23,039 nucleotides of DNA. Origin: a virus. Numbering within the stretch: position 1 is the first letter of the stretch; each line of letters opens with the position of its first letter. The notes beneath the pieces are model-generated. The model saw nothing but the letters and a program-made list of their open reading frames with translations. It was not told the origin of the DNA and ran no database searches. The DNA is taken from IMG/VR virus record IMGVR_UViG_3300030329_003455, positions 1-23,039 of that record, one strand, 5' to 3'. This document shows, piece after piece, positions 3,471 to 13,382 of this stretch. Made by a program: the position numbers and the translations under genes.

Positions 3471-4004
3471 TCAACCTCCCGTTGCGCCGATGTAAATCTC
3501 TAAGGCTTCTTCGAGAGGTAACTCATTTAAAATTACCGCTTCTGGATATCGCCTCTTGATCTGTTGAGTCTTCATCCTCACAACTTTTGGGGTGTCGTTT
3601 AAGGGATGATAACGACTTTCTCTCAAACCGTCCTTCGTAGTAAAAAGATAAGCCCTCTTCAAATGCCTCTTCAAATCTCTGATAGTCAAATACTTGCCTA
3701 CTTGATCCGCGCACCAGTACTCAAACTTCTGATCAAAACCTTCAGGACACCAATCGTACTTGCCAACATCAGTCTTAGGTAAGGATGCGAAGTACTCCTC
3801 TATCTCTTGGAATTTCTCGCGCCATGCACCTTTGACCTTGATCAATGGTGACTTGTCATGGTGGTTCACACGGTCAGATCCACCGTGCCCATCGTTGCCG
3901 ACATCAGCAAATGGTTTGCCGTCCAGATATACGACTGCCGTGTAGCAGTATGTTTCTTCACTACCAGATGCAAAGTATTTAATTGCTTTCATTTCTAGAT
4001 TCAT
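3471..4004 (-). CDS. Conserved hypothetical phage protein (177 aa)
   Basis: The 177-aa protein starts MNLEMKAIKYFASGSEETYC. It has a beta-rich first half with VVYLDGKPFADVGNDGHGG, reminiscent of phage-encoded proteins of unknown function with a Gly/His-rich turn (NDGHGGSD), and a basic second half (KRHLKRAYLF, TQQIKRRYPEAV). ATG 4002-4004 is chosen because AAAAGGGA lies ten bases upstream; an internal ATG four codons later is possible. It is the first gene of the leftward unit driven by the promoter at 4049-4077. No catalytic motif is identified. Confidence 0.75.
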   Translation of the reverse strand: MNLEMKAIKYFASGSEETYCYTAVVYLDGKPFADVGNDGHGGSDRVNHHDKSPLIKVKGAWREKFQEIEEYFASLPKTDVGKYDWCPEGFDQKFEYWCADQVGKYLTIRDLKRHLKRAYLFTTKDGLRESRYHPLNDTPKVVRMKTQQIKRRYPEAVILNELPLEEALEIYIGATGG

Positions 4005-4048
4005 TTGTTTATATCCCTTTTAATTTCTAGATTATTCCATATGTAGCC

Positions 4049-4077
4049 ATACTATTCTGCAAATTCCTATATGTCAA
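4049..4077 (-). promoter_or_regulatory. Leftward sigma70-type promoter for the 4004-to-2313 unit
   Basis: On the minus strand: perfect TTGACA (4072-4077), a 17-base spacer, then TAGTAT (4049-4054). Two similar words, ACATATAGGAAT and ACATATGGAATA, lie on the minus strand in and downstream of the spacer and might bind a regulator. The 177-aa gene starts about 45 bases downstream. Confidence 0.6.
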
Positions 4078-4079
4078 GC

Positions 4080-4305
4080 TCTGCTTTCAATACATAAAAA
4101 TTACTGGCTGCGTAGGTCGGAAATTGTTAAAACAACATTTTAAAATATGCTTTAAAATTGCAATTTCAAATTAAAATTTAAAACCTTTAAAATTCTAAGT
4201 TGTTGATTTTATTGAATAATCGATTTTAATTTTAACCGTTTCAAAAAGTTGGTTTTGAAATGAAAAACGTAATAAAATCAAAGGATTACAATTTTAAAAA
4301 GGCTA
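4080..4305. other. AT-rich leader with dyads before the terminase small subunit gene
   Basis: No gene is supported here. The stretch is extremely A/T-rich, with repeated TTTAAAA words, a 12-bp perfect palindrome AAATTGCAATTT (4155-4166) and an inverted repeat TTTCAAAA-N6-TTTTGAAA (4239-4260). Such composition suits a bent or easily melted control region or origin, but nothing specific (iterons, DnaA boxes) is evident to the eye. Confidence 0.4.
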
Positions 4306-4347
4306 CCCCCTTTACAAGGGGGAATATATATTAAATTCCCTCTTGTA
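4306..4347 (+). promoter_or_regulatory. Two mutually exclusive hairpins sharing one arm
   Basis: CCCCCTT (4306-4312) pairs perfectly with AAGGGGG (4316-4322) around a 3-base loop. The same AAGGGGG also belongs to a longer stem: TACAAGGGGGAAT (4313-4325) pairs over 13 positions, with one G-U, with ATTCCCTCTTGTA (4335-4347). The two folds cannot coexist. A TATAAT word (4346-4351) overlaps the outer arm. The arrangement looks like a switch or attenuator in the leader of the terminase small-subunit gene, though transcription through it is not shown. Confidence 0.45.
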
Positions 4348-4377
4348 TAATAAAACAGCGCAAAATTAAAATAAATT

Positions 4378-4419
4378 TGCACCATAACGCTTGACCTCAA
4401 AATTTATTCACGATATGGG
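4378..4419 (+). promoter_or_regulatory. Candidate promoter with TGCACCATAA element before terS
   Basis: TGCACCATAA (4378-4387) is followed three bases later by TTGACC (4391-4396), a 17-base spacer and TATGGG (4414-4419, weak -10). The same decamer occurs twice in the consensus promoter at 7434-7462, so the element may be a phage operator common to the rightward structural units. The terminase small subunit starts about 40 bases downstream. Confidence 0.4.
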
Positions 4420-4460
4420 AAGATATGAAAAAATATGGTTGCAGTAGCTCGGAGTAATCA

Positions 4461-5018
4461 ATGCCAAAAATAAAACCAGAAGGATTTGACAAAGATAAAA
4501 ACCCAGCAAAATTCGGTAGAAAAATTACACCACAACAACAACGTTTCATAAATAACTATTTACACAAAGACATGACTCAGACCGCATCAGCTAGAGAGGC
4601 AGGTTATAAAAACCCTAACGTGTCAGCCGTCCAATTACTTAACCACCCTTTCATAAGAGAACGCATTGAAGAACAAAGACAGGAACTGGAAACTAAGTAC
4701 GGAGTAACCATAACGAAATCTGTGCGCGATATGCAGAGACTTAGAGATGAAGCTTGGGCGGCAGGTCGATACTCAGACGCTATTCGAGCCGAAGAATTAA
4801 GATTAAAAGCAACAGGATTGCTTGTAGCAAAATCACACGTTGTACATGAAAACGTAGATGGAATGAATCGGGATGATATCGTAAAAAAATTACAGGAATA
4901 TATGGAACGTGCTAAAGATAGGATGGTTGATGTAACACCAACAGAAAATCCCACAAAATCAGCACAAGTTCCTATAACTGACTGTAGCAAAGAAAAGAAA
5001 AATGTCGGGGATAACTAG
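4461..5018 (+). CDS. Terminase small subunit (TerS)
   Basis: The 185-aa protein starts MPKIKPEGFDKDKNPAKFGR. Residues about 22-75, with ITPQQQRFINNYL, MTQTASAREAGYKN and VQLLNHPFIRERIEE, match the helix-turn-helix DNA-binding N-terminus of the Terminase_2-type small subunit. A helical oligomerisation segment follows, then a disordered charged tail. TerS rings bind the packaging initiation site and hand DNA to the large subunit. The ribosome site before ATG is GGAG. It stands alone as a rightward unit; TerL lies about 6.9 kb away beyond a leftward cassette and a giant gene, which is an unusual separation. Hairpins and TTCGGG repeats immediately follow. Confidence 0.85.
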   Translation: MPKIKPEGFDKDKNPAKFGRKITPQQQRFINNYLHKDMTQTASAREAGYKNPNVSAVQLLNHPFIRERIEEQRQELETKYGVTITKSVRDMQRLRDEAWAAGRYSDAIRAEELRLKATGLLVAKSHVVHENVDGMNRDDIVKKLQEYMERAKDRMVDVTPTENPTKSAQVPITDCSKEKKNVGDN

Positions 5019-5023
5019 GGGAG

Positions 5024-5089
5024 GGGGGGCTATCCCCCCACCCTCCTCTGGCGGTTCTCCTCCCTCTGGAGGGGGTGTTTCTCGCTTTT
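5024..5089 (+). terminator. GC-rich hairpins downstream of terS
   Basis: GGGGGG (5024-5029), loop CTAT, CCCCCC (5034-5039) begins six bases after the terS stop. A second hairpin, CCTCC (5059-5063) with GGAGG (5068-5072), extendable by wobble pairs, is followed by TGTTTCTCGCTTTT. The second fits an imperfect intrinsic terminator. In this AT-rich genome the local GC content is striking. Confidence 0.5.
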
Positions 5090-5114
5090 ATGACCACAGA
5101 CACACAAAAACTTG

Positions 5115-5252
5115 TTCGGGCTATCAGTGAGCCTCTCCTTGGCTCTACGGGCTTTCGGGCTTTTCGGGCTTTTCGGGCTTAAATTAAGATTTATTCGGGC
5201 TTTTCGGGGTCGATCTTCGGGCTTCGGGGCTTCGGGCCTTCGGGCTTCGGGG
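5115..5252. repeat. TTCGGG repeat array A, with G-quadruplex motif
   Basis: I count eleven TTCGGG words: starting at 5115, 5154, 5163, 5172, 5194, 5203, 5216, 5223, 5231, 5239 and 5246. Part is a strict 9-base tandem (TTTTCGGGC). At 5226-5252 four runs of at least three G are separated by loops of 4, 5 and 4 bases, meeting the usual G-quadruplex pattern. It sits between terS and the leftward HTH gene and could be a packaging site, a terminator complex or a roadblock. Confidence 0.75.
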
Positions 5253-5287
5253 TCTAATACTAATACTAATACTAGACCCCTTTATTG
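5249..5287 (+). terminator. Hairpin with TAATAC-repeat loop between convergent genes
   Basis: GGGGTCTA (5249-5256) pairs perfectly with TAGACCCC (5273-5280). The 16-base loop is made of tandem TAATAC-type repeats, and TTTATT follows on the plus strand. It lies three bases past the stop side of the leftward HTH gene, so it may end rightward transcripts from terS and also trim leftward ones. Confidence 0.55.
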
Positions 5288-5289
5288 AT

Positions 5290-5445
5290 TTACTCCAAAT
5301 ATTTCTTGATCCAATTATTAAGAGTCTGATAGTTCTTGAACCCTAACAGCTTTGAGGCTTGAACCTTGTTATTTTTTGAAGCTTTGAGGGCTTCCCTAAT
5401 TCTAGCTCGAATTAGGGTTGCGATTTCCTTTTCTAAAGGGATCAA
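5290..5445 (-). CDS. Orphan Fis-like helix-turn-helix protein (51 aa)
   Basis: A 51-codon leftward frame starts at TTG (5443-5445) with GGAG seven bases upstream and overlaps the stop of the 246-aa gene in a TTGA arrangement, indicating translational coupling. Residues about 14-51 (IREALKASKNNKVQASKLLG, then YQTLNNWIKKYLE) match the Fis/NtrC C-terminal HTH_8 pattern: helix, NN.VQAS.LLG turn and recognition helix TL.NWIKK. In NtrC-type regulators this domain follows an ATPase; here it stands alone, as in Fis itself. It likely dimerises and binds DNA near its own locus. Its non-ATG start and size make it easy to miss. Confidence 0.65.
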   Translation of the reverse strand: MIPLEKEIATLIRARIREALKASKNNKVQASKLLGFKNYQTLNNWIKKYLE

Positions 5446-6182
5446 TACATCACTCCTTCTATCTCTTTACAGTTTGAAAGTATAGCGAACTTTTTAAAGT
5501 CATCATCATTAGCACAGCCCCCATTTTCATTAAACCATTCACCTGACCATGATAGACCAAAAGAGCCGTTGCGTGTAGACCCGTCAAGCAAGTCTTTTGT
5601 TTCAGTATCAACTGACATATCTGCTATTGAAAAATGACAGTAGTCAGTCAGTACAGAATAAGGCTCTTCATAATCATTTATTTTAAAAAGTTTTGCGTCA
5701 GTGTAACCCCCTCGAACGTCAGCGCCACCGTGAATTTGAAGCAATACATAATCCTCGTCATCAGGATTTTTTAAGAATTGACCTTGCAGAACCTGAGAAA
5801 AATTATTGTCCCAGTTATAGGTGTTGAATCCAAGGCCGTCAGCTTCAAACCCCATATCATCAAGTAAATCTGACCCTTCAGAATCAGTCCCGCAATATTG
5901 ACCGTTCCAGTTGTTAACTTCTATTGCGTTAAACCTATGGCAGAACTTATCAAGTTCTAAAATCCCGCTTGTAAGTTTATGAAATAGAGAAACTGTGACT
6001 TCTGGCCATGAGTCTCCAACGTCATAAAATTTTATTGTTGCGGGTGCAGTATTTTTGAAATAGTCAATATTACACCCTTGATTACGTTGCCAATTACGAC
6101 CACCAGCACCCCCGCTATCTAATATGTGGGTGCCAGTATTTTCGGTTAACATTGCAACTATTGTTTCTTCTAAATTTTTCAT
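5442..6182 (-). CDS. Conserved hypothetical phage protein (246 aa)
   Basis: The 246-aa protein starts MKNLEETIVAMLTENTGTHI and continues LDSGGAGGRNWQRNQ. That opening (TENTGTH.LDSGGA.GRNW..N) recurs in uncharacterised phage proteins as I recall; function unknown. It is acidic, rich in Gly, Asp and Asn, and has LQIHGGADVRGGYTDAKLF in the middle and a Trp/Asn-rich segment near the end. It has no transmembrane segment and no clear catalytic motif. Its promoter region (6183-6271) is a near-copy of the one before the membrane-protein gene. It is followed by the coupled Fis-like HTH gene. Confidence 0.75.
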   Translation of the reverse strand: MKNLEETIVAMLTENTGTHILDSGGAGGRNWQRNQGCNIDYFKNTAPATIKFYDVGDSWPEVTVSLFHKLTSGILELDKFCHRFNAIEVNNWNGQYCGTDSEGSDLLDDMGFEADGLGFNTYNWDNNFSQVLQGQFLKNPDDEDYVLLQIHGGADVRGGYTDAKLFKINDYEEPYSVLTDYCHFSIADMSVDTETKDLLDGSTRNGSFGLSWSGEWFNENGGCANDDDFKKFAILSNCKEIEGVMY

Positions 6183-6271
6183 TGTTTTTTTCCAATTCTA
6201 AATTAACAATATAAAAAAAGTATAAAGATATTTATACATAATGCAAGCTTTTTATATAAGAATTTTTATAT
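6183..6271 (-). promoter_or_regulatory. Leftward promoter/operator, copy 1 of a duplicated 89-bp region
   Basis: On the minus strand: TTGCAT (6241-6246), 16-base spacer, TATACT (6219-6224). The spacer and -10 contain a perfect inverted repeat GTATAAA-N4-TTTATAC (6220-6237). Just upstream is an 18-base near-palindrome, ATATAAGAATTTTTATAT (6254-6271, one mismatched pair). The whole 89 bases match 7188-7276 with four differences. Confidence 0.7.
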
Positions 6272-6302
6272 CTAGTCGGGTTGCTGCGGTCTTATTTATT
6301 GG

Positions 6303-6391
6303 TCAGGGTTCGGGGTTCGGGGCTTTATAGTTCGGGTTCGGGGTTCGGGGCTTTATAGTTCGGGTTCGGGGTTCGGGGTTCCCTTTTATAG
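6303..6391. repeat. TTCGGG repeat array B with 28-bp higher-order units
   Basis: Eight TTCGGG words start at 6309, 6316, 6331, 6337, 6344, 6359, 6365 and 6372. They are organised in 28-base units that each end in CTTTATAG: 6303-6330 (degenerate start), 6331-6358 and a longer variant at 6359-6391. The G-runs of three to four bases separated by TTC can stack as a G-quadruplex if one loop is about 11 bases. The region between the 246-aa gene's promoter and the 105-aa gene has no coding potential that I can support. Confidence 0.8.
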
Positions 6392-6455
6392 TGATAACAA
6401 AAACTATTATTACTATATATAAAACTTTTTAATCTGCAGCCGATTTTTGAGCCGA

Positions 6456-6481
6456 AAGAAAAAGGCCTCTTTAAAGGCCTT
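6456..6481 (-). terminator. Leftward intrinsic terminator after the 105-aa gene
   Basis: AAGGCCT (6462-6468) pairs with AGGCCTT (6475-6481) around a 6-base loop. On the minus strand the stem is followed by TTTTTCTTT. It lies about 40 bases downstream of the 105-aa gene and closes the leftward 7187-to-6521 unit before the TTCGGG array. Confidence 0.75.
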
Positions 6482-6520
6482 AATCATTATTTATGTTCTA
6501 TTAGGGTTAAATTAAACCCA

Positions 6521-6838
6521 TTACTGCTCCCCCCCATGATTCATTGCTAATGTTCGGCTAGACAATCTTACTTTTCCATTAGTTAAGTTTTTGTCAACGC
6601 CGCCATCAATAACGTTTACTATAACGTTTTTTTCTTTTAATAACTTGAGCAGCTTTGATGCGTCACAATCTTCTTCTAAATATACAGTGCCAGTCGCCAA
6701 GTCATAATAGGAAAATTCCGAAAATTCTTTAAGACTAATTCCAAAACCCCTAATATCATAGCTGGAAATTTTAATGTAGCCATGGCTTATTGTGTCGATA
6801 TGGGGAATTGAGATTGGTGTATGTGAAAACATATTCAT
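6521..6838 (-). CDS. Hypothetical protein (105 aa)
   Basis: The 105-aa protein starts MNMFSHTPISIPHIDTISHG and is mostly beta-like in its first half (GYIKISSYDIRGFGISLKEF, YYDLATGTVYLEED). A helix, DASKLLKLLKEKN, follows, with a short tail ending HGGEQ. The ribosome site AAAGGAG lies inside the end of the 52-aa gene, whose stop directly abuts this ATG (TAAATG), so the two are coupled. Last gene of the leftward 7187-to-6521 unit. No family recognised. Confidence 0.7.
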   Translation of the reverse strand: MNMFSHTPISIPHIDTISHGYIKISSYDIRGFGISLKEFSEFSYYDLATGTVYLEEDCDASKLLKLLKEKNVIVNVIDGGVDKNLTNGKVRLSSRTLAMNHGGEQ

Positions 6839-6997
6839 TTAAAATTGCTCCTTTAAAATTTTTTTTACTTTCGCATTGTCTTTTGCTTGCAATGCGTTTC
6901 TTAAATCGTCATTTTCTAAAGCAATGTCTGGATCAATGGTGTATCTACTACATAAACATAAAAATTCATTTTGAGTCATTTTATATATCTTTTTCAT
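6839..6997 (-). CDS. Small hypothetical phage protein (52 aa)
   Basis: A 52-codon leftward frame runs from ATG 6995-6997 to TAA 6839-6841, filling the gap between the membrane-protein and 105-aa genes. The product starts MKKIYKMTQNEFLCLCSRYT and continues IDPDIALENDDLRNAL and KVKKILKEQF. The pattern MTQ.EFL.LC..Y.I.P..ALEND..R.AL resembles tiny phage proteins I have seen elsewhere, of unknown role. An alternative start is the ATG at 6977-6979 (46 aa), which begins at MTQNEF and may be preferable. Its fit between neighbours (4 bases from one stop, abutting the next start) supports it being real. Confidence 0.65.
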   Translation of the reverse strand: MKKIYKMTQNEFLCLCSRYTIDPDIALENDDLRNALQAKDNAKVKKILKEQF

Positions 6998-7001
6998 TTT
7001 C

Positions 7002-7187
7002 TTATATTAAAGCAGCTATCAATAAAGAAGCCACATAAATTGAAGCCATAACCATTAGAGTCCAAGCCAATTTATTCCAAAAAACTTTTTTGGCTTCTTC
7101 TTTAGCATAGTATGCATGGATATGTTTGAATCTTTCTGCCTTAGATTCTTTTAACATTTTTTCCCATTCGGTTAATTGTTCTACCAT
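7002..7187 (-). CDS. Small C-terminally anchored membrane protein (61 aa)
   Basis: The 61-aa product starts MVEQLTEWEKMLKESKAERF at ATG 7185-7187, preceded by GGAG at good spacing. The frame is open 19 codons further upstream, but that part only translates the promoter/operator. A charged, helical cytoplasmic-looking half (residues 1-36) is followed by one hydrophobic segment, LAWTLMVMASIYVASLLIAA, to the C-terminus, so it is probably a tail-anchored inner-membrane protein. First gene of the leftward unit under the second copy of the duplicated promoter. It could be an exclusion or membrane-associated early protein, or holin-like, but nothing specific supports either. Confidence 0.65.
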   Translation of the reverse strand: MVEQLTEWEKMLKESKAERFKHIHAYYAKEEAKKVFWNKLAWTLMVMASIYVASLLIAALI

Positions 7188-7276
7188 TGTTTTTCTCCAA
7201 TTCTTAATTAACAATATAAAAAAAGTATAAAGATATTTATACATAGTACAAGCTTTTTATATAAGAATTTTTATAT
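7188..7276 (-). promoter_or_regulatory. Leftward promoter/operator, copy 2 of the duplicated 89-bp region
   Basis: On the minus strand: TTGTAC (7246-7251), 16-base spacer, TATACT (7224-7229). The palindromes are the same as in copy 1: GTATAAA-N4-TTTATAC at 7225-7242 and the 18-base near-palindrome at 7259-7276. Only four bases differ from 6183-6271, and two of them lie in the -35 hexamer. The remaining 7277-7433 holds no gene I can support; a weak inverted repeat, GGGTAT/ATACCC, is at 7347-7369. Confidence 0.7.
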
Positions 7277-7433
7277 TTATCCAGCACCTGTGTTTAATTA
7301 TCTTTTTCCTAGGTACCCTAAGCAATCTAAACAAATGTTCGGATTCGGGTATCTATTAAAGCAATACCCCCTATTTTCAAGCAATGACGGACAGCAACTT
7401 ATACTCTGTTTCCCACGAACAATCGCGGGTCCC

Positions 7434-7476
7434 TTGACAAATGCACCATAACTTCCTATAATGCACCATAAGTTAT
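7434..7476 (+). promoter_or_regulatory. Perfect-consensus sigma70 promoter with twin direct repeats and dyad
   Basis: TTGACA (7434-7439), exactly 17 bases, TATAAT (7457-7462). AATGCACCATAA occurs at 7440-7451 (within the spacer) and again at 7460-7471 (starting inside the -10), 20 bases apart, about two helical turns. An inverted repeat ATAACTT-N15-AAGTTAT (7448-7476) is centred on the end of the -10. A promoter this strong is probably repressed or timed by a protein binding these repeats. It should drive the main rightward structural unit. Confidence 0.85.
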
Positions 7477-7507
7477 AATTAGTTATTTTATGGGGGTTTT
7501 TAGTTTT

Positions 7508-7747
7508 ATGGCTACATACAGGATAAATTACGGTGAAGTTAGGGAGTTTGAGTGTCAGTCACCATCCGAGGTTGTTCCTGAGTTGCAGCGTTATCACATG
7601 ACGGGTAGTTGTGATGATGAGCGTTTATTTATGCGCAGGGTTGCATCTGAGATGTGTGAATGGAACGGGAAGAATTATTATTTTAACAGCCGGGAGGATT
7701 TTGCGGATAGTATGATTAGGAATGGTTTATTGGAATATGTTGATTAA
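7508..7747 (+). CDS. Small hypothetical protein (79 aa), first gene of the structural unit
   Basis: The product starts MATYRINYGEVREFECQSPS at ATG 7508, with a G run 11 bases upstream. An in-frame ATG at 7490 would add six residues (85 aa) but has no ribosome site. The protein is small, acidic and soluble, with a CDDERLFMRRVASEMCEW helix and an aromatic NGKNYYFNSREDF segment. I do not recognise a family. As the first gene after the strong promoter and before the giant virion-type protein, it may be a regulator or accessory of head assembly; position alone suggests this. Confidence 0.7.
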   Translation: MATYRINYGEVREFECQSPSEVVPELQRYHMTGSCDDERLFMRRVASEMCEWNGKNYYFNSREDFADSMIRNGLLEYVD

Positions 7748-7799
7748 CAAGAAAGTATTTGTTAGAGTTAGCCTTATATAATTTTGCAGGAGGTTAATT

Positions 7800-10700
7800 A
7801 TGAGTAGTGGCATAGCTGTTAAGACGGGATTTTCTTCTCCTGCTATGATGGGTGGTATGCGTCCTATGGCGGGTATGGTTTCTCCTTATGGTATGCCGTT
7901 TCCTTCTGGTCCTCCTCCTGTTTCTCCTCCTGTTTCTCAGCAATTTCCTTCACCTATGAGTGTTCCTATGAATGCTTCGCGGGGCAATGTTGCTATTCAG
8001 GACAGGTCTAATGCTCCTCGTCGTCGCAGGTTTGGGGATAGTTTGGAGCGTATGTTATCCAGCACTGCGATGAGTCGTGGTGGTATGGGTAGTTTTCGTT
8101 CATCGGTTTCACGTTCTATGGTTCCACGTTTTATGATGGGTGGTGGTTTAGCATCACCTATGGTTTCTGCGGATGATATGTCTAGTATGGATGTATTTAC
8201 TGGTCAGATTCCTAATAATTATTCACCTATTCAGTATTATCAGGGTGCTGGTGAGGTTATGCCGGCAAATCGTGAGGATATTGGTTATGAGGCTGGTGGT
8301 GCTGGTTTTTCTGTTGTTACGGGTGGTCACAGAGGCTGGGGTGGACCAGAAGCGGGTTATGTTTCTCATGTAGTTTACACTGATGTTGATGGTAATCAGA
8401 GTAAATTGGCGACAATATCTGGTTATAAAGATAGCACTTACAGGAACAGGCATAATGCTCAGAGTTTAGCTAATCAATTAAATACTGCGGCATATTCTGG
8501 TTCTGGTTTGGGTATTGAGGCTGAGTCTGGTCGTGGTATGGGTGCTGGTTTATTAGGTATGGGTGATAGGCAGAGTTATTTGACGTTATCTGACGGGACC
8601 AGGATTGGCACGAGGCAGGGTAGTGGTTCGTCTGGTGAGCTTGAGAATTTGAATACTTGGGCTAGTGCGGCGATGGAATTGAATCAGGATATATATGGTG
8701 ATGGTACTGTTGGCATTGATGATGGTACTGATGATGGTACTGATGACGGCACGGATGGAAGCACTGGAGGCACAGGAGTTACTGGCACTGGTGATTATAG
8801 TAATGTTGTTACTGGCGGTGGTGATGCTACGAACATGATTGACACGAATATTGGCACTAGCACGGATGTTGGTGGTGATATGAATACGATGATTGGTAAT
8901 TATGGTATTTCGAGCAATCCTGCGGAGACTGCATTATTTGGTCCTAATGTTAGCGATGATTTATCTGTTGATTCTCAGTATACAGTTATTGCTGATCCTA
9001 ATTCAGTTAGTGGTTACAGTTATGGTACAACTGGCGGTGATACTATGACGGGTATATCTAACATTGGTGCGATTACGTTACCTGCTGATCCTATTGAGTT
9101 AGATATTTTTAATTATCTTAGTGGTCCTGCTTATGGCACGTTGGGTCAGGATGTTAGTGGTTATTTTCTGGGTGGTTTTGTTAAGGACGATGATGACGAA
9201 GATTACACGCCTACGAGTGATGAGTTACAAGCTGCGATTACTGCTGGAGGTGGAACAGACAAAACTTCTGATACAAGCAAAGTTGATTTTACTAAAACTG
9301 CATCTGGCAAAGATTTTACAACGTCTGCTGAATCTGACACTGATGATTTATTTGGTGGCACTAAGTACATTATAAACGACACGGGTAGGATGATAGACAA
9401 TATCAGCCTGCAGAAGTACACCGATTTGTTAGGTAATGCGTATGACGATTCAAGGTTAGTGGAGCCTGGTAATGTTGCTATTAACTACAAAGGTAATGTA
9501 GATATTAATAAAGCCGATTCACTTCCTTCTTATTTACCTCCAAACGCTCCTGGGTTTGATCAAGTCCCAACTAATCCTACTACATTTCAGTATGGATCAG
9601 GAGAAGTTAATATTCCAAAATATAGTATGCCGTACCTCCCGACTATAGCAGACTGGCCTCAGTTTTTCAATACTCCCCCAGACCCTTTTAATAAGGATCT
9701 TGAAGTTTTTAATGAGGCACAGCGTACACCTTATTCTCTTGCGCTATCTCCTTATCCCAAGGAAGAAGTGATAGGTCTTACTAGAGTAGCCTTGGGGGAG
9801 CATGAGAGTCCCGACCAACGTAGATCTAAGGCTGGATTAGATTCCGTATTTTCACAAGATCCGATAGTGTCCACTGGTTCTCAGCCCAGTACAACCAAAT
9901 TTGTATTTGGGGATGGATCTAAATACGAAGGAGAAATTAAGGATAATAAATTTCATGGGCAGGGTACCTATACTTTTGCCGATGGGACCAAACAGGTGGG
10001 AATCTGGAAGGATGGATATTTTCAGGAAGGGGATTCATTTGGTGAGTTATTCCCTGGCTCTAGGATTTTTGGCTCCCTGGATCAAGCGGACCCAAGTAGC
10101 GAGCTATCTCAAGGAACGGCCCCAACAGGAGATCCTTATTCAGGAGATCCTTATTATAGAGGTGATATAAATTTGTTAGGTACAGATGATGGTAGATTAG
10201 CAGATGCAAGTCCTCAGAATGAAATACAACCAATGACAGCACCATCACAGGCTTCACTACGTCCACCTACATTACCTTTGTCTGAAGGCATAGATGTTAC
10301 TCCTTTCAATAGATGGGCTCCCCCAGATAGAAGTGAAGACATTTTGGACGCACTAAGGGAGGCCATTTATGGTAATGAAATACGTCCTATGCTTCGTCCT
10401 TTTGATTACGAATATTTTCCATATAAGAATGAAAGCATAGATGATATTGTTAATTTTATAAAGAATGAGGAGGGTTTTCTTTCTTCACCTAGAAAGGATG
10501 GAAATGTTTTCAGGGGTGGTTTTGGAAGTGACACGACGACTTTAGCTGATGGCACGGTTGTTAGTGTAACACCTGATATGAAAATAACGGAAGCTGATGC
10601 TGACAGGGATATAGAGCGCAGGTTGTTGACCGAGTTTTTACCTGCGGTTGAAGGTGCTGTAGGTTCGGAGGCTTATTCAAATTTATCTTCTGGCGCGAGG

Positions 10701-11621
10701 GCTGCTTTAGCTAGTATAGCATATAATTATGGTGCGGGGTTTGCTAAAAAGGGTTATATGGCGGATGTCATATCTGCTGCTAGAGATAATGATGAATCTC
10801 GTTTAGCTTCTGCTGTTAGTAATTTAGGCAATCTTACCAGTGGCATTCATAATCCTAATCGTCGAAATCGTGAGGCTGATATTATAAGGAGTGGTTTGGT
10901 TAATGTTCGGCCGTGGGATATGCAAGATTCTTCTAGAACAATTCCTTTTCAAGGTGGCAATCAAGCTGGTAATAATGTTACGAATCTTTTAGATATTTTT
11001 AAAGATTTTGGTAGTAATTTTGGTCAGAATCTGAGGGAATTTACGGGTGCTGACGCATATGAGGGTATGAGTGATAAGGAACGTTTTAGGCGTAATTTAG
11101 AGTTAGCTGCTGGTCGTATTGGTTCTGATGATATGAACAGGGCTGATGAGATTAACCGTTTACTTAGCGGTGGTGGTAGTAAGCTTTTACAGGCGATGAG
11201 TTTTGGTTTATTGAATCCTGCGGCTGATATGAAGCGCAGGGCTACTAAGATGTTAGAATTGCTTGATAGTGGTGCTGAGATTATACGCATGGGGGATGAA
11301 GGTGGTGTATTAGGCATTATGGACCCTGAGACTAACAGGTTTTTGACTTTTGGCGGTACAGAGGGTCGTGATTCTGATATGAATGTTGTTAGGGATATTG
11401 GTGGTGATGATGACAGGCCAGTTGAGGTTTTGGAGAGGAATTACACGATTGGTTCTGATGGTGTAGTTGTTTGTAATGATGAGGGTTATGTTTATGATTC
11501 TGGGAAAAAGATGTGTGTTCCTGTTACTGAAGATCCTGATTTAGGCATGGCTACTGGTGGTTCTGTTGGTTTAAACAAGGTTGCTGATAATTTTTTAAGG
11601 GCTTTGGGAGGTATGCAATAG
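7800..11621 (+). CDS. Giant virion-type protein with MORN and lysozyme domains (1273 aa)
   Basis: The 1273-aa protein has a near-perfect ribosome site (AGGAGG). Residues 1-130 are Gly/Met/Pro/Ser-rich and look disordered. Residues about 301-325 are a DDGT-type acidic repeat. Residues about 700-745 contain a classical MORN unit (YEGEIKDNKFHGQGTYTFAD). Residues about 880-1035 match a phage muramidase-like domain: FIKNEEGF with candidate catalytic E891, then FRGGFGSDTTTLADGTV, ADRDIERRL and ARAALASIAYNYG; this subfamily, as I recall, shows R.GYGSDT in place of the T4 lysozyme TIGYGH. The C-terminus has GYVYDSGKKMCVP. It is likely a virion-carried peptidoglycan-cutting protein for DNA entry. Codon use changes in the middle (about 9520-10440). 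Confidence 0.75.
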   Translation: MSSGIAVKTGFSSPAMMGGMRPMAGMVSPYGMPFPSGPPPVSPPVSQQFPSPMSVPMNASRGNVAIQDRSNAPRRRRFGDSLERMLSSTAMSRGGMGSFRSSVSRSMVPRFMMGGGLASPMVSADDMSSMDVFTGQIPNNYSPIQYYQGAGEVMPANREDIGYEAGGAGFSVVTGGHRGWGGPEAGYVSHVVYTDVDGNQSKLATISGYKDSTYRNRHNAQSLANQLNTAAYSGSGLGIEAESGRGMGAGLLGMGDRQSYLTLSDGTRIGTRQGSGSSGELENLNTWASAAMELNQDIYGDGTVGIDDGTDDGTDDGTDGSTGGTGVTGTGDYSNVVTGGGDATNMIDTNIGTSTDVGGDMNTMIGNYGISSNPAETALFGPNVSDDLSVDSQYTVIADPNSVSGYSYGTTGGDTMTGISNIGAITLPADPIELDIFNYLSGPAYGTLGQDVSGYFLGGFVKDDDDEDYTPTSDELQAAITAGGGTDKTSDTSKVDFTKTASGKDFTTSAESDTDDLFGGTKYIINDTGRMIDNISLQKYTDLLGNAYDDSRLVEPGNVAINYKGNVDINKADSLPSYLPPNAPGFDQVPTNPTTFQYGSGEVNIPKYSMPYLPTIADWPQFFNTPPDPFNKDLEVFNEAQRTPYSLALSPYPKEEVIGLTRVALGEHESPDQRRSKAGLDSVFSQDPIVSTGSQPSTTKFVFGDGSKYEGEIKDNKFHGQGTYTFADGTKQVGIWKDGYFQEGDSFGELFPGSRIFGSLDQADPSSELSQGTAPTGDPYSGDPYYRGDINLLGTDDGRLADASPQNEIQPMTAPSQASLRPPTLPLSEGIDVTPFNRWAPPDRSEDILDALREAIYGNEIRPMLRPFDYEYFPYKNESIDDIVNFIKNEEGFLSSPRKDGNVFRGGFGSDTTTLADGTVVSVTPDMKITEADADRDIERRLLTEFLPAVEGAVGSEAYSNLSSGARAALASIAYNYGAGFAKKGYMADVISAARDNDESRLASAVSNLGNLTSGIHNPNRRNREADIIRSGLVNVRPWDMQDSSRTIPFQGGNQAGNNVTNLLDIFKDFGSNFGQNLREFTGADAYEGMSDKERFRRNLELAAGRIGSDDMNRADEINRLLSGGGSKLLQAMSFGLLNPAADMKRRATKMLELLDSGAEIIRMGDEGGVLGIMDPETNRFLTFGGTEGRDSDMNVVRDIGGDDDRPVEVLERNYTIGSDGVVVCNDEGYVYDSGKKMCVPVTEDPDLGMATGGSVGLNKVADNFLRALGGMQ

Positions 11622-11903: not shown

Positions 11904-13382
11904 GTGAATGATTTTGCAAATTTTACTAAATATTTAACGGATGATGAGTTAGCCAAGGTTGCTCCTATGTTGGAGCGATTACAAATTCTGGATGACAGAA
12001 CTGAGAAGAGTGCTAATTTTTTAAGTTTTGTTAAGTATGTTTGGCCTAGTTTTATTGAGGGCCGTCACCATAAAATTTATGCAGAGAAGTTACAAGCGGT
12101 AGCTGATGGTAAGTTAAAGCGTTTGATTATAAATATGCCGCCTCGTCATACTAAGAGTGAATTTGCCAGTTATTTATTTCCTACTTGGTTAATGGGTCGT
12201 AATCCTACTCGTAAGATTATTCAGGCTACGCACACTGCGGAATTAGCTGTTGGTTTTGGTAGGAAGGTTAAGAATTTAATTGACAGTGAAGAGTTTAGGG
12301 ATGTGTTTCCGAATGTAAAGCTTGCTTCTGATGCGAAGGCTAGTGGTCGTTGGAGTACAAATGCTGGTGGTGAATATTATGCTGTTGGTGTGGGCGGTGC
12401 GTTAGCTGGTCGTGGTGCGGATTTAGCTATAATTGATGATCCTGTATCTGAGCAGGATGCATTAAGTGTATCAGCTTTAGACAATATTTATGAGTGGTAT
12501 ACTTCTGGTCCGAGGCAGCGTTTACAGCCTGGGGGTTCTATAATTCTTGTTATGACTCGTTGGAGTATTAGGGATTTGACGGCAAAGGTTTTACAAAAGC
12601 AGAGTGAAGTTGGCGCAGATAAATGGGAGGTTGTGGAATTCCCGGCTATTATGCCTAGTGGTAAATCTTTATGGCCTGAATTTTGGTCATTAAAGGAGTT
12701 GGAGGGTGTTAAGGCTTCGATTCCTATAAGCAAGTGGAATGCTCAATATATGCAGAATCCCACTGCTGAAGAGGGTGCTATTATTAAGCGTGAGTGGTGG
12801 AATTTATGGCAAAAGGATTCTCCTCCTGTTTGCAGTTATGTTATTCAGTCTTATGACACTGCGTTTAGTAAGAGTGATCGTGCGGATTACAGTGCTATTA
12901 CAACGTGGGGTATTTTTTATCACGAGGATACTGGAGAGGATCATATTATTTTGCTTGATGCTACCAGGGGCAGGTGGGAATTTCCTGAATTAAAGGAGCA
13001 AGCGAATAATTTATATCAGGAATTTGATCCTGATATGGTATTGATAGAGCAGAAGGGATCAGGTATGCCTTTAACGCAAGAATTGCGTAGGGCTGGTATT
13101 CCTGTTACGCCATTTACTCCTAGTCGTGGTGCTGATAAATTTACGAGAATGCATTCATGTGCGCCTGTTTTTGAGAGTGGTATGGTTTGGTGTCCTGAGA
13201 CTAGTTTTGCGGAAGAGGTTGTTGAGGAGTGTGCTTCTTTTCCTAATGGTGAATATGATGACTTGGCAGATTCAATGACACAGGCTATACTGCGTTTTAG
13301 GCAGGGTGGTTTTATTACTACTGCGACTGATTATGATGATGAAGATGAATTTTTTTCTCGACGTAAAAGAGAATATTATTAG
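11904..13382 (+). CDS. Terminase large subunit (TerL), ATPase and nuclease
   Basis: The 492-aa protein drives DNA into the prohead and cuts the concatemer. The N-terminal ATPase shows a Walker-A-like segment, NMPPRHTKSE (about 78-86; the deviant form common in terminases), Walker B LAIIDDP (about 174-180) and a coupling motif, VMTRW (about 216-220). The C-terminal RNase H-like nuclease has acidic residues at SYDTA (D318), LIEQKGSG (E382) and YDDLADS (about 451-457). Length is normal for the family. The frame opens at GTG 11904 with only a weak GGAT upstream; the next in-frame ATG (11967) would remove 21 residues but keep all motifs. It is separated from TerS by about 6.9 kb. Confidence 0.95.
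   Translation: MNDFANFTKYLTDDELAKVAPMLERLQILDDRTEKSANFLSFVKYVWPSFIEGRHHKIYAEKLQAVADGKLKRLIINMPPRHTKSEFASYLFPTWLMGRNPTRKIIQATHTAELAVGFGRKVKNLIDSEEFRDVFPNVKLASDAKASGRWSTNAGGEYYAVGVGGALAGRGADLAIIDDPVSEQDALSVSALDNIYEWYTSGPRQRLQPGGSIILVMTRWSIRDLTAKVLQKQSEVGADKWEVVEFPAIMPSGKSLWPEFWSLKELEGVKASIPISKWNAQYMQNPTAEEGAIIKREWWNLWQKDSPPVCSYVIQSYDTAFSKSDRADYSAITTWGIFYHEDTGEDHIILLDATRGRWEFPELKEQANNLYQEFDPDMVLIEQKGSGMPLTQELRRAGIPVTPFTPSRGADKFTRMHSCAPVFESGMVWCPETSFAEEVVEECASFPNGEYDDLADSMTQAILRFRQGGFITTATDYDDEDEFFSRRKREYY

Follow-up and report, generated by a model that had tools for sequence, protein, structure and literature searches.

A conserved promoter element, probably with a built-in operator array, upstream of the virion genes in an uncultured clade of marine phages

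The virion genes of the phage studied here are preceded by a genuine, conserved phage control element, which is new in its detail and of a known kind, a promoter plus operator array. Our preferred reading is that a strong sigma70 promoter here contains its own operator array, and that this array probably serves a repressor timing the virion operon (a probability of about 0.6, from comparison of sequences). The element is an intergenic stretch of ~200 bp, detected with an nhmmer profile built from eight relatives in ~75 non-redundant relatives and in the window, i.e. the whole stretch of DNA analysed (Table 1). Each genome has a single copy, which precedes the p79, structural and terL genes and has the promoter as its downstream end. 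The initial annotation of this DNA had not recognised it, and the literature searched contains no description of it.

Table 1. Features of the window in order of position.
Feature	Position	Strand	Remarks
Third copy of the decamer	4378..4387	+	immediately 5' of a TTGACC that precedes terS; unmatched in relatives
51-aa Fis-like HTH protein, candidate regulator	5290..5445	-	PF02954, E = 2.3e-4, just under gathering score
Conserved upstream part of the element	7303..7424	+	nhmmer E = 3.7e-13 against the relatives' profile; consensus comparison
Site 1, GGTACCCTA	7312..7320	+	operator-type motif of the clade, at its usual upstream place
Weak hairpin GGGTAT...ATACCC, then TATTTT	7344..7375	+	fold -5.9 kcal/mol
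Most conserved block, window version	7399..7424	+	YACACTAAGTTTTCCACCTACAATCACC in relatives
GGGTCCC	7427..7433	+	adjoins the -35 hexamer upstream; relatives' site-2 position
-35 hexamer, TTGACA	7434..7439	+	TTGAC in 73/75 relatives
Unit 1, TGCACCATAA	7442..7451	+	in spacer; apparent counterpart of relatives' GGTACCCTA/GGGTCCC/NNTCCCNTA, shifted by ~2 bp
Unit 2, CTTCCTATAA	7452..7461	+	overlaps -10; counterpart of TTCCCATA in relatives
-10 hexamer, TATAAT	7457..7462	+	17-bp spacer after -35
Unit 3, TGCACCATAA	7462..7471	+	over start region; position of GTACCA in type-A relatives
p79, 79-aa protein	7508..7747	+	first gene behind the promoter; predicted fold beta-beta-alpha-alpha-alpha-beta
1273-aa protein, lysozyme-like and MORN segments	7800..11621	+	downstream of the promoter, same direction
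Terminase large subunit (terL)	11904..13382	+	downstream of the promoter, same direction

The window is a complete IMG/VR record of 23,039 bases, to which our reading for this phage is confined. It carries the genes for the small and large terminase subunits, portal and capsid. At the DNA level no match to cultured phages was found. Its portal is ~48% identical to those of the pelagiphages HTVC027P and HTVC023P, and phages of the HTVC023P type (HTVC023P, HTVC027P) are its nearest cultured relatives. A TerL query of viral contigs identified 381 related stretches, of which the best 80 (~84–88% identical) were kept. The phage is a member of an uncultured marine clade with genomes of ~55–60 kb. 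HTVC023P and HTVC027P contain neither GGTACCCTA nor the element at the thresholds used. When HTVC023P, HTVC027P and 023Pt_psg01 were considered as carriers of a homologous element, the profile did not match, and the few GGGTCCC and AGAGGTACC strings near terL were too weak. One p79 query against bacterial genomes found no prophage form. The 1273-aa protein encoded between p79 and terL combines a phage lysozyme-like domain with a MORN repeat and varies strongly among relatives.

An exact consensus promoter, TTGACA-N17-TATAAT, had been proposed in the initial annotation and was borne out at 7434–7462 in all 12 positions. As a sequence match it is certain from the window alone; it is the sole 12/12 match in the region scanned (3500–10500), and 200 dinucleotide shuffles of the window produced no such match. 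The hexamers have the spacing of a sigma70 promoter, and the p79 start codon lies downstream.

Conservation in the relatives extends from the hexamers into the spacer. TTGAC occupies the -35 place in 73 of the 75 elements; behind it the spacer holds a conserved unit, in most cases GGTACCCTA, GGGTCCC or NNTCCCNTA, and the bases T, C, C, T and A at +8, +10, +11, +13 and +14 are conserved to 89%, 93%, 95%, 81% and 86% respectively. After removal of promoters with at least 75% identity, 19 dissimilar promoters were left, in which the spacer holds 0.71 bits of information per base compared with 0.20 downstream. This conservation is unlike that of ordinary sigma70 spacers. Further CC-TA units recur at intervals of roughly one helical turn, lying over the -10 box and, less often, over +1: of the promoters in the thinned set, 17 have unit 1, 13 have unit 2 and eight have unit 3, which is not universal among relatives. 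The units start at +8/9, +18–20 and +29–31 from the -35 box, in steps of ~10.5 bp, and therefore share one helical face. The -10 hexamer by itself accounts for part of the likeness of the middle unit. All are direct repeats rather than dyad-symmetric sites; they have the size of a protein site and overlap the core promoter, as expected for an operator array. Near-complete relatives have GGTACCCTA nowhere but in the element and always in one orientation, and in three near-complete genomes close unit pairs in the promoter pattern were confined to the element.

The typical element follows a constant order. Behind the terminator of the upstream genes come site 1 (AGGTACCCTA), ~130–250 bp upstream of -35 in relatives, a palindrome (CCGAACAATTGTTCGG) and a G-run/C-run hairpin. 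These are followed by the block YACACTAAGTTTTCCACCTACAATCACC, often an A-tract, and site 2 (AGGTACCCTA), and finally by TTGACA with GGTACCCTA directly in the spacer, TCCCATAAA and GTACCA. An A-tract upstream of -35, resembling an UP element, is present in 45 of the 75 elements. The hairpin is terminator-like and strong in some relatives (-21.1 kcal/mol in L030, -23.5 kcal/mol in L093), and 27 of the 75 elements passed a strict hairpin-plus-T test at this place. Wherever a p79 gene has enough sequence upstream of it, the element lies within 2.3 kb. L030 and L093 contain the element without a p79 gene, and the TTGAC box, too, is lost in L093. Many relatives (L111, L117, L123, L126, L127, L190 and L043) have an additional long hairpin (GACA..CCCCCATAAAGGGGGG..TGTC) inserted between A-tract and site 2. 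Site 1 and the spacer unit co-vary with a Fisher p of 0.037, a value which ignores relatedness and is not used as evidence. Sequence anatomy, conservation and the single location per genome are demonstrated directly by these comparisons.

Protein binding, a repressive effect, its timing and the identity of the protein (ribbon-helix-helix, RHH, or Fis-like candidate) we infer from this arrangement. Host RNA polymerase with sigma70 would transcribe a rightward operon consisting of p79, the 1273-aa gene, terL, portal and capsid. The direct CC-(N)-TA units, about one helical turn apart, would offer binding sites in the spacer, over -10 and, in many genomes, in the start region, with extra copies just upstream of -35 and ~130–250 bp upstream. 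Cooperative binding of a small phage DNA-binding protein to these units on the same face would block RNA polymerase; a promoter too strong to be left open would in this way fire only in the proper infection window. A consensus promoter, reinforced by an A-tract in many relatives, would be expected to fire immediately on infection; the units in the core would be placed to prevent this or to stop the promoter later. The operon could be held back until late, or an early promoter could be shut down later. Late expression is expected for terL and the capsid genes. In HTVC027P, a distant relative, the expression of some of the genes lying between terS and terL is highest early to middle, and no phage polymerase was reported, which suggests transcription by host RNA polymerase (PMC12753301).

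We consider repression to be the effect with somewhat better than even odds. The repeats could instead bind an activator or a host nucleoid or transcription factor rather than a phage repressor, which we consider unlikely. An activator or a bending protein would be suited by the far-upstream site 1 and the A-tract DNA, and the -10 boxes of relatives (CATAAA, CATACT) are weaker than consensus. However, both hexamers of the window are exact consensus and make an activator unnecessary, overlap with the core promoter is the usual place for repression, and the sites occur only once per phage genome.

The repeats which had been reported to start at 7440 and 7460 were recovered as a pair of 12-mers, AATGCACCATAA. 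The decamer TGCACCATAA occurs in the 23 kb at 4378, 7442 and 7462 only, always on the + strand, in agreement with the earlier statement that there is just one further copy (dinucleotide shuffles give 0.05 exact copies per window, n = 200). The series TGCACCATAA, CTTCCTATAA, TGCACCATAA proceeds in exact 10-bp steps. The two decamers look like divergent copies of the relatives' units, with the common core G-Y-ACC-M-TA, and it is this core together with the spacing from which homology of unit 1 to the relatives' unit is deduced. Relative L205 has an intermediate form, GGCACCCTA. By itself the window repeat is only suggestive, the 12-mer pair being moderately unusual, since some 12-mer direct repeat within 100 bp arises in 18% of shuffles. 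This frequency, and the 2-bp offset of the first copy from the relatives' unit, would fit a good promoter carrying a coincidental 12-mer repeat unrelated to the units of relatives. We regard such a coincidence as improbable: the second copy falls precisely on the place of GTACCA in type-A relatives, there is a match at the middle unit, and the remainder of the element is homologous. What raises the promoter site above chance is the position-specific conservation in relatives. The search for the decamer that had been called for thus gave three copies in the full window; among relatives the literal decamer proved phage-specific, while the arrangement is shared. The literal decamer pair is present in 21 viral contigs, none of which shares the promoter, and these were taken as chance or unrelated. 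The inverted repeat described around the -10 box is present (ATAACTT at 7448–7454, AAGTTAT at 7470–7476), but a comparable 7-bp dyad is obtained in 10% of local shuffles and no counterpart was seen in the promoters of relatives. It looks incidental.

The single copy per genome close to the terminase genes, and the noncoding stretch with repeats, hairpin and conserved blocks, would also be compatible with a cos or pac packaging site, in which the repeats are bound by the terminase small subunit and the promoter is merely adjacent. Repeats and hairpin arranged in this way recall cosB layouts. We nevertheless consider this improbable, as units located exactly within the -35/-10 spacer in 73 of 75 elements are not needed for packaging. 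Furthermore, the ends of six of eight near-complete contigs are 22–34 kb away from the element, although the end of a contig is not necessarily that of the virion DNA. That the element is a replication origin, with repeats like iterons and an A+T-rich stretch for unwinding, is very improbable, since the repeats track the promoter core and no skew turning point was found beyond those accounted for by gene strand changes, despite the direct repeats ~20 bp apart, the A-tracts and the resemblance of TTTTCCACC to a DnaA box.

The window contains several other repeats. A 95-bp sequence is directly duplicated (6180–6274 and 7185–7279, 95% identity), the copies ending where two minus-strand genes have their start codons; read leftward, the copies contain TTGCAT or TTGTAC, N16 and TATACT, which looks like a duplicated leftward promoter plus leader. 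At 6306–6381, a perfect 28-bp tandem repeat (GGGTTCGGGGTTCGGGGCTTTATAGTTC, 2.6 copies) forms a G-rich stretch within AT-rich noncoding sequence, and the TTCGGGC repeats at 5148–5252 are similar to it. A 72-bp tandem repeat at 2439–2741 lies inside a minus-strand ORF of 122 aa that contains repeated GLWExYxxNGQL units.

The initial annotation suggested that the decamers could be sites of a regulator common to terS and the virion operon. On the virion operon promoter a role as regulator sites is probable, related units being found at matching positions in relatives, whereas shared regulation of terS is not supported: a conserved terS upstream region with a promoter (TAGCACTTGACC...) was found in ~45 relatives, with no GGTACC-type sites upstream of terS. 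The copy at 4378 may be in use in the window phage, a use for which the relatives give no comparative support. The central idea of that annotation stands in modified form, but neither the dyad nor the terS regulon does. A second conserved noncoding element (window ~4290–4375) is located upstream of terS in relatives also. It is made up of a CCCCCC-TATA-GGGGGG hairpin with TATATA behind it and, in relatives, ACGTCA repeats, ~100–150 bp upstream of terS.

The regulator may be an RHH protein, a Fis-like protein or a host factor. Of the two proteins suggested previously, the 51-aa Fis-like protein stands as a clade-conserved candidate. The ORF of the window corresponds to the C-terminal domain of a longer clade protein, and the Fis-like protein is encoded by 10 of the 11 relatives that are near-complete or long, with the helix NYQTLxNW nearly unchanged. 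One Fis-like gene (G007:C1:18449-18769, L232) has an internal TAA. The case for p79 is weakened: its predicted model (pLDDT 90) shows two strands, three helices and a strand, with no HTH or RHH, and its structural matches are solely uncharacterised small phage proteins. As a DNA-binding regulator p79 was rejected, sequence and fold searches having given no such relative. A second candidate, 67–91 aa long, has its gene on the opposite strand, close to the replication genes, in all 11 near-complete or long relatives; its gene is expected outside the window, the record being a fragment. It is modelled with modest confidence (mean pLDDT 65) as an extended segment followed by two helices. The top structural matches of this model are all RHH proteins (Arc, PutA, CopG, omega), but with Z of ~5, and there is no Pfam RHH match. 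In the genomes compared, the subtype of this candidate follows the operator type (GGTACCC with the RRNIS type, the others mostly with the EDRAIG type). Both may simply track the phage tree, and the association is not used as proof.

Among known systems, the operators of the RHH proteins Arc (P22), CopG (pMV158) and omega (pSM19035) resemble the element in their short tandem sites on one face over the promoter core, and the clade has a candidate binder in its conserved phage protein of predicted RHH topology. To our knowledge, the unit sequence and the ~10.5-bp spacing match no named system. The stoperators of cluster A mycobacteriophages are short asymmetric sites with one orientation relative to transcription (PMC9283540, PMC6550527). 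The sites of the clade are likewise short and in a single orientation, but stoperators are many and dispersed over the genome, whereas GGTACCCTA is found at one locus per genome in the clade, and the decamer at two loci in the window. With the lambda OR/OL regions, on which CI and Cro act, the element shares several operators over the -35 and -10 boxes of a strong sigma70 promoter; its units are direct while those of lambda are palindromic. No CI/Cro-like gene was identified adjoining the units.

We tentatively extend the reading as promoter plus operator array to the whole 200-bp once-per-genome element, with a model that is rather doubtful in its full form. A regulator, perhaps the RHH protein, might array on one face through the core promoter and loop to the far upstream site; the operator sequence would diverge (GGTACCC, GGGTCCC, GCACCATAA) while the layout stays fixed, as in immunity-type specificity. 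The element supplies a defined promoter, candidate sites and two named candidate proteins, all of them open to tests in a laboratory bacterium, with no need to culture the phage.
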